Assembly (NCBI GenBank): GCA_016744515.1
Contig: JADGEF010000002.1
Coordinates: forward strand, 16,772 to 80,771
Reading direction: 5' to 3'
Length of the DNA: 64,000 bases
Origin: Marinifilaceae bacterium
Lineage (GTDB): Bacteria; Bacteroidota; Bacteroidia; Bacteroidales; Marinifilaceae
Below are positions 19,359 through 20,790 of the stretch, one piece after another. Numbering within the stretch: the stretch's first letter is position 1; every line of letters starts with the position of its first letter. Position numbers and translations under genes: made by a program. The notes below the pieces were generated by a model. The model did not search any database and had not been told where the DNA came from. It worked only from the letters and a program-made list of their open reading frames with translations.

Positions 19359-19372
19359 GCAAACGTTTGCAT
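19357..19372. promoter_or_regulatory. LacI/GalR (PurR)-type operator-like palindrome AAGCAAACGTTTGCAT
   Basis: Perfect 16-bp palindrome core (GCAAACGTTTGC) fitting ANGCAANCGNTTNCNT; overlaps the preceding stop codon, about 85 nt upstream of the first asnA leader ORF. Confidence 0.4.
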
Positions 19373-19455
19373 TTTTTGTTAACACAAAATCAACTAGATA
19401 TATTTTTTTATTCGAAAAAACTTATCTAGTTTAGCAGTCACAAACAAAGAGAAAT

Positions 19456-19530
19456 ATGAGATCATTCAACAATAATAATGCTTTTAATAATTTAATGAAT
19501 AATAATTCATCGAAAATGGGAAGCTTGTAG
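19456..19530 (+). CDS. Asparagine-rich leader peptide 1 of asnA attenuator (MRSFNNNNAFNNLMNNNSSKMGSL)
   Basis: 24 codons, 9 Asn; stop codon adjoins the arm of a predicted antiterminator; followed by an intrinsic terminator. Confidence 0.85.
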   Translation: MRSFNNNNAFNNLMNNNSSKMGSL

Positions 19531-19558
19531 TTGTTTGACAAAAACATATAAAACACTT

Positions 19559-19587
19559 AAGCCTTCCCAAAACGGAAGGCTTTTTTT
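19559..19587 (+). terminator. Attenuator terminator 1 upstream of asnA
   Basis: AAGCCTTCC-CAAAAC-GGAAGGCTT + TTTTTT; competing antiterminator arm GGGAAGCTT at 19518-19526 pairs with AAGCCTTCCC (one bulge). Confidence 0.85.
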
Positions 19588-19608
19588 ATAACCAATTTTT
19601 ACGTGAAC

Positions 19609-19653
19609 ATGTATTCTTTCAATTTAAATAATAATAATAATAATTTTCACTGA
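19609..19653 (+). CDS. Asparagine-rich leader peptide 2 of asnA attenuator (MYSFNLNNNNNNFH)
   Basis: 14 codons, 7 Asn including 6 consecutive AAT codons; followed by antiterminator arm and intrinsic terminator. Confidence 0.82.
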   Translation: MYSFNLNNNNNNFH

Positions 19654-19686
19654 GAGTGAGAAAGGATACCAACATGCATTTGTTAT

Positions 19687-19717
19687 AGCCTTTCACACAC
19701 AGAGAGGCTTTTTTTTT
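19687..19717 (+). terminator. Attenuator terminator 2 upstream of asnA
   Basis: AGCCTTTC-ACACACA-GAGAGGCT (8 bp incl. one G-U) + T9; antiterminator arm GTGAGAAAGG (19656-19665) pairs with CCTTTCACAC (19689-19698) with one mismatch. Confidence 0.82.
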
Positions 19718-19752
19718 ATCAAGAATTTTAATTTTAACCAGAATAAAAAAAC

Positions 19753-20790
19753 ATGAAAGATTTAATTATCCCAAAAGATTACAAGAGCTTACTCGACTTA
19801 GATCGAACAGAAAAAGCAATTAAGCTGATTAAGGATCAATTCCAATTGCAATTATCTGCAGAGCTTCGACTAAAGCGTGTTACTGCGCCACTAATTGTAA
19901 TGAAACATACAGGTTTAAACGATGACTTAAACGGTACTGAGCGTCCTGTTGCTTTTCCAATTAAAGCATTAGGCGATGATAGAGCGGAAGTTGTTCATTC
20001 TTTAGCAAAATGGAAGCGTTATATGCTCGGTGAGCTTAGCATACCAGCCGGAAAAGGTCTTTACACAGATATGAACGCACTACGCCCTGATGAGGATTTT
20101 ACCAACATCCACTCATTATATGTAGATCAATGGGATTGGGAGAAAACAATCACTAAAGAGGAACGTAGCCTTGATACTTTGAAAAAGACAGTTAAACAAA
20201 TCTATGCGGCGCTTAAGAGAACTGAATACATTCTACAGGAAAACTATCCGAATATTGAGCCACAACTACCTGAAGAAATCTATTTTATTCATGCAGAAGA
20301 TCTTTTGCTTCAATATCCTGACTTGACTCCTAAAGAGAGAGAAACTAAGGTTGCTAAAGAGTTTGGTGCTGTATTTATAATTGGAATTGGTAGTGAAATG
20401 GCCAACGGTGAACCACACGATGGTCGCGCTCCTGACTATGATGATTGGAGTACGCCTACTCTTAACGGTTATAAAGGTTTAAACGGTGATATTATTCTTT
20501 GGAACCCTATACTAGAAATAGCTTTTGAAATTTCATCAATGGGTGTTCGTGTTGATGAGGAAGCTCTTGAAAAACAACTTAAAATTAGAGATGCCGAGTC
20601 GCGTAAGTCTTTAATGTTCCATAAAAAGCTATTAGCTGGCGAACTACCTTATTCAATTGGTGGTGGAATAGGTCAATCGAGACTATGCATGTTCCTTCTT
20701 AAAAAAGCTCATATTGGAGAAGTACAGTCGAGTATTTGGCCTGATGAGCTAAGAGAGAAATGTAAAGAATCTTCAATTTTCATTCTTTAG
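19753..20790 (+). CDS. asnA: Aspartate--ammonia ligase (asparagine synthetase A)
   Basis: HTGLNDDLNGTERPVAF, YVDQWDWEK, GGGIGQSRLCMFLLKKAHIGEVQSSIWP motifs. Confidence 0.97.
   Translation: MKDLIIPKDYKSLLDLDRTEKAIKLIKDQFQLQLSAELRLKRVTAPLIVMKHTGLNDDLNGTERPVAFPIKALGDDRAEVVHSLAKWKRYMLGELSIPAGKGLYTDMNALRPDEDFTNIHSLYVDQWDWEKTITKEERSLDTLKKTVKQIYAALKRTEYILQENYPNIEPQLPEEIYFIHAEDLLLQYPDLTPKERETKVAKEFGAVFIIGIGSEMANGEPHDGRAPDYDDWSTPTLNGYKGLNGDIILWNPILEIAFEISSMGVRVDEEALEKQLKIRDAESRKSLMFHKKLLAGELPYSIGGGIGQSRLCMFLLKKAHIGEVQSSIWPDELREKCKESSIFIL

Follow-up and report, generated by a model that had tools for sequence, protein, structure and literature searches.

Why should a gene for asparagine synthesis be preceded by two short reading frames, both rich in asparagine codons and both followed by a terminator? 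The question is raised by the region upstream of asnA in the window, that is, the whole 64 kb stretch of DNA analyzed here. The first-pass annotation of this DNA had read the two frames as leader peptides of serial attenuators. Leader-peptide attenuation is a classical mechanism; this locus would add asparagine synthesis to the pathways under such control and extend it to a phylum in which it has rarely been described. Our results show that the tandem pair is real, and sequence comparison and modeling indicate that it very probably consists of serial attenuators as first read, with additional structure and in a wider context.

Two Asn-rich leader units precede asnA

All features described here lie on the forward strand. 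ORF scanning and comparison with relatives identified leader 1, MRSFNNNNAFNNLMNNNSSKMGSL, at 19456-19530 with 9 Asn among 24 residues, and leader 2, MYSFNLNNNNNNFH, at 19609-19653 with 7 Asn among 14. Each is followed by an intrinsic terminator that was found by terminator scan and in relatives: in unit 1 a hairpin formed by arms 3 and 4 (19559-19582) with a T run to 19587, and in unit 2 a hairpin at 19687-19709 with a T run to 19717. The gene downstream (19753-20790) encodes aspartate--ammonia ligase, the ammonia-dependent asparagine synthetase A, and its product scored 406.8 bits against the NCBIfam equivalog TIGR00669 (cut-off 292.8). All coordinates and sequences given for leaders and terminators in the first-pass annotation were thus correct, as was the gene.

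Both strands of the window were scanned for a short ORF rich in any single amino acid with a terminator within 80 nt, and the two asnA units were the sole matches for any amino acid. In 2000 dinucleotide shuffles of the region 19360-19752 no such unit arose. Folding of 19440-19752, a check that had been proposed earlier, gave a z-score of -3.78.

A probable Bacteroidetes-type -7 promoter element, TAGTTTAG, is located at 19427-19434, 29 nt upstream of leader 1, and matches the consensus TAnnTTTG (PMC7366714) at 5/6 positions. Matches of at least 5/6 were found in 46 of 50 loci, a level that is also reached by 46% of shuffled windows. Since such an element often arises by chance, its constant distance is the stronger evidence; it lies 26-31 nt before the ATG of leader 1 in 31 of the 50 loci. 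The sequence thus points to a probable transcript start shortly upstream of leader 1. The gap between terminator 1 and leader 2 leaves little room for a promoter, and unit 2 is therefore probably reached by read-through. An inverted repeat, AACTAGATA / TATCTAGTT (19390-19433), overlaps the probable leader 1 promoter and was considered as an operator; this candidate was rejected, its left arm not being evident in the genus members inspected.

The two units form alternative helices and are of different types

In unit 1, arm 1 (19480-19515) is composed of GCTTTT at 19480-19485, the partner of the first bases of arm 2, and an inner hairpin at 19490-19515 with Asn codons in both stem and loop, as seen in minimum free energy (MFE) folds of the window and of most relatives and by synonymous recoding. 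Arm 2, GGGAAGCTT (19518-19526), overlaps the last leader codons and was identified by swap test and column count; its 2:3 helix has a folding energy of -14.3 kcal/mol. In unit 2, MFE folds place arm 1 at TTTTCAC (19644-19650) and arm 2 at GTGAGAAAGG (19656-19665), directly past the leader stop, and arm 2 was also identified by swap test. The sequence TTGTTAT (19680-19686) is a potential partner of the Asn codon run; in folds this pairing is weak and absent from the MFE fold of the window, and its counterpart is clear in many relatives as ATTGTTAT. The arm 1 pairings in both units complete a four-arm layout (1:2, 2:3 and 3:4). The antiterminator arms had been expected at or past the leader stops; both are present, the second where expected and the first inside the end of leader 1. 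The scheme drawn up at first was right in arms 2, 3 and 4 and had missed the 1:2 protector, the difference between the unit types and the tandem leaders at his and ilv described below.

By sequence comparison units 1 and 2 are different types, each conserved separately. The unit 1 type has a longer leader with dispersed Asn codons, some of them in the stem and loop of the inner hairpin, and an outer helix in which arm 2, a GGGAAGGCT-like sequence, is sequestered. In the unit 2 type the leader is short and carries 4 to 9 consecutive Asn codons, which Pro-Pro often follows. The tail of this leader is the partner of arm 2, and pairing of the Asn run with the downstream ATTGTTAT is seen in many relatives. 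Pro-Pro stands at or near the stop in many unit 2 leaders (e.g. L013, L020, L153, L159 and L166) and has been lost from the genus of the window, which has Phe-Pro or Phe-His instead. The CC-CC bases of Pro-Pro can act as arm 1; another possible effect of this ending is a slower ribosome at the stop codon.

Covarying stems had been named as a check on the attenuator reading, and both the protector and the antiterminator pairings were found to co-vary in relatives. In a swap test, arms from the same genome paired better than arms taken across families in 92.7% of comparisons for the unit 1 1:2 helix, in 73.3% for unit 1 2:3 and in 87.4% for unit 2 2:3. The result for unit 2 1:2 was weak (62.1%) and the test failed in families f99 and f117; the unit 2 tests excluded five loci whose terminators were missed by that routine (L028, L167, L168, L170 and L177). 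In f82 the arms are of unrelated sequence yet mutually matched, with -9.7 kcal/mol as compared to -1.9 when swapped. A column count of the unit 1 2:3 helix gave 89.4% paired cells with double changes in 6 of 9 pairs, had its optimum at zero slide and exceeded 500 of 500 shuffles, a control that is inflated by relatedness more than the slide control is. Mutually exclusive 2:3 and 3:4 helices with covariation are thus present in both units, clear by column count in unit 1 and by swap test only in unit 2. A 1:2 protector that involves the leader is seen by folds, swap test and recoding in unit 1, and in folds and a weak swap result in unit 2. Unit 1 leaders from 13 families folded better than synonymous recodings that keep the peptide (mean z -2.33); the hairpin of the window itself only marginally beat its recodings (z -1.38, p 0.09), and its arm 2 is without one G that is present in other genera. 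When both units were aligned with MAFFT and analyzed with RNAalifold, the terminators alone were recovered, because variable hairpins slip in the alignment; the swap, recoding and column-count tests were used instead.

Stalled ribosomes are predicted to relieve termination in both units

Our preferred reading, to which we assign a probability of about 0.88 on the basis of sequence comparison and simulation, is that two serial ribosome-mediated attenuators of the trp/his type, both sensing charged tRNA-Asn, control asnA. With ample Asn-tRNA, a ribosome translating the leader would reach the stop codon and cover arm 2, the 3:4 terminator would form and RNA polymerase would stop. With scarce Asn-tRNA, the ribosome would stall for want of charged tRNA on Asn codons in or beside arm 1 and open the 1:2 protector; arm 2, freed by stalling, would pair with arm 3 and the terminator would fail. 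Since the polymerase has to pass both units, termination in vivo should multiply.

The proposed opposition between a stalled ribosome and one that occupies the stop codon held in folding simulations of both window units. These considered the transcript as it is until arm 4 appears, assumed a fixed ribosome footprint of 14 nt and used equilibrium folding; such folds demonstrate the feasibility of stall-dependent antitermination only. For unit 1 the predicted antiterminator probability (arm 3 held) was 0.47 with no ribosome, 0.88 with a ribosome stalled on Asn and 0.005 with a ribosome at the stop; the values for unit 2 were 0.12, 0.78 and 0.025, respectively. Unit 1 without a ribosome would thus be half antiterminated, unlike in textbook attenuation. 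Means over 45 unit 1 copies were 0.59 (no ribosome), 0.80-0.83 (stalled) and 0.06 (at stop), and over 30 unit 2 copies 0.40, 0.76-0.81 and 0.11. The unit 2 copy of f99 misfits, with 0.01-0.16 when stalled.

Tandem Asn leaders are conserved at asnA in several families

We gathered asnA loci at the levels of genus, family, order and class and inspected their upstream DNA, a comparison that the first-pass annotation had suggested and by which its reading could have been refuted, had relatives lacked Asn-rich ORFs and terminators. Two Asn-rich leaders with terminators were found at 6 of 6 asnA loci in the genus, and within the family (f1) genera g5, g7, g9, g10 and g13 have two Asn-rich leaders at the loci that could be scored; at two of these loci, L015 and L016, only one terminator passes the score threshold, and L151 is cut by a contig end. 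In all, 8 families of the order have the tandem pair, f25, f39, f62, f80, f89, f99 and f117 among them, as do two families from other orders (L186 and L191), some of the second units among the tandem loci being recognized by eye. Asn-rich leaders and terminators have thus been kept across families despite diverged sequence.

No leader plus terminator was found upstream of asnA in genus g8 of the same family, nor in the other sampled Bacteroidales (Prevotella, Bacteroides, Paludibacteraceae, Muribaculaceae and others). The AsnA proteins of these leaderless loci (g8 and most other Bacteroidales) cluster separately on the AsnA tree, where the leader label requires 5 changes as compared to a shuffled mean of 40, a clustering to which near-copies add.

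Could one unit alone be the working amino-acid-regulated attenuator, with the other a constitutive or decaying terminator and no special response from the tandem? Several lineages do manage with one unit, unit 1 in f1 genera g3 and g14 and in families f6, f9, f27 and f82, and unit 2 in family f33, and the pairings in unit 1 of the window are weakened. We nevertheless consider this improbable, as in-frame Asn codons, stop-to-terminator spacing and terminators are kept in both units (genera g1, g5, g7, g9, g10 and g13 and other families and orders), and both window units are predicted to antiterminate in a stall-dependent manner. As asnA is naturally found with either unit alone or with both, the contribution of the second attenuator is directly testable. 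At L184, which belongs to a different order of the class, unit 1 and its terminator are followed by a unit 2-like stretch without Asn codons, which from its sequence is possibly a decayed unit 2.

Leader codons match the product of the downstream pathway

One fixed rule was applied to all combinations of leader and gene. Asn leaders with terminators were confined to asnA (50 of 195 loci, with some genomes recurring), His leaders to hisG (28/39), Trp leaders to trpE (12/17) and Ile/Leu/Val leaders to ilvD (9/15); every off-diagonal cell of the matrix was zero. No leaders of any type were found before asnS (n = 22) or asnB-family genes (n = 30, not all true asnB). The leaders are therefore enriched in codons for the amino acid whose synthesis the downstream gene serves, and an intrinsic terminator is found, at the sequence level, between leader ORF and gene. 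With the relatives, the covariation and this diagonal matrix, the trp/his-type logic proposed for the locus is well supported by sequence comparison.

The matrix also bears on whether the region is instead a translation-independent RNA element (a T-box, riboswitch or protein site), with the Asn-rich frames a by-product of A/T-rich structural repeats. Asn codons do join the protector helices, so that the nucleotide pattern is partly structural. T-box leaders of Asn genes in Firmicutes would also sense tRNA-Asn charging, and they bind the tRNA directly. No Rfam family, T-box included, matched the window at its gathering score, and among 7 Bacteroidetes/Chlorobi genomes covered by a survey none had a T-box (PMC2494555). 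The start and stop codons and the in-frame runs of Asn are retained where the flanking sequence has changed, and His, Trp and Ile/Leu/Val frames precede matching genes only, which fits decoding; an element that works independently of translation is thus highly unlikely. Just as unlikely is that the leaders encode functional small peptides acting in trans with incidental terminators: trans-acting leader peptides such as peTrpL are known (PMC7298713) and the Pro-Pro ending is common to many unit 2 leaders, but the peptides are poorly kept outside the Asn codons, their endings differ and the RNA pairings co-vary.

Tandem leaders at other operons of the same genome

In the genome of the window two His leaders were found upstream of the his operon. 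One, MIFTRLHHHHFFLPQVSR, is followed by a detected terminator; the second was read by eye, and its terminator is imperfect. At hisG of this genome and of genus members (L269, L266, L267 and L272) tandem His-rich leaders are each followed by a AACGCCAACCTG...CAGGTTGGCGTT-type hairpin. Upstream of ilvD lie two Ile/Val-rich leaders that each have their own terminator, and tandem Ile/Val-rich units of this kind were observed before ilvD in this genome and relatives (L288, L276, L277, L279, L282, L283 and L286). One Trp leader, which contains a WWW run (MNASVCKFWWWH...), precedes trpE, at L301 and in relatives alike; two Trp leaders were observed upstream of trpE at L304. Genus members repeat the his, ilv and trp pattern.

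As his and ilv also have tandem leaders for the same amino acid, the design is no oddity of asnA, and its repetition in one genome suggests that it may be general there. That this branch of Bacteroidota generally uses serial same-amino-acid attenuators (at asnA, his and ilv in the genome of the window) for steeper, multiplied control, with thresholds that may differ between the two asnA unit types, is a proposition that we hold at even odds.

Comparison with known attenuators

The asnA system resembles E. coli trp/his attenuation in its leaders rich in the pathway amino acid, the 1:2, 2:3 and 3:4 helices, the intrinsic terminator and the biosynthesis gene downstream. It differs in its predicted sensing of Asn, in being found in Bacteroidota and in having two serial units for one amino acid, and the unit 1 hairpin, unlike those of E. 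coli trp/his, holds regulatory codons in its loop. Two serial leader ORFs are also found at Salmonella mgtCBR, where one (mgtP) is read via codons for a single amino acid; there the signals are different (ATP and proline) and the stem-loops are unlike intrinsic terminators (PMC3641672), whereas both asnA units carry Asn codons and intrinsic terminators.

Transcriptome data have led others to suggest leader attenuation in Bacteroidetes (PMC9723704, PMC7366714). The main text of PMC9723704 gives clues to it in Flavobacterium psychrophilum, and that of PMC2864571 lists the Bacteroid-trp motif RF01692, a trp cis-regulatory motif in Bacteroidetes. As presented there, both are cis-regulatory and stand before amino-acid genes like the asnA leaders; they are not Asn-specific, and neither main text mentions a tandem pair. 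A literature search with partial coverage retrieved no Asn-specific leader-peptide attenuator and no tandem leader pair sensing one amino acid. Bioinformatic attenuation surveys exist and might cover asn genes.

The Rfam family Phe_leader (RF01859) was rejected at 30.0 bits over 19467-19589 and 21.7 bits over 19590-19717, below its gathering score of 55; nor is Phe the dominant residue. In a genome of the same order, a match to Rfam Acido-Lenti-1 (39.6 bits, gathering score 37) was observed near asnA on the reverse strand of L028 (651-696).
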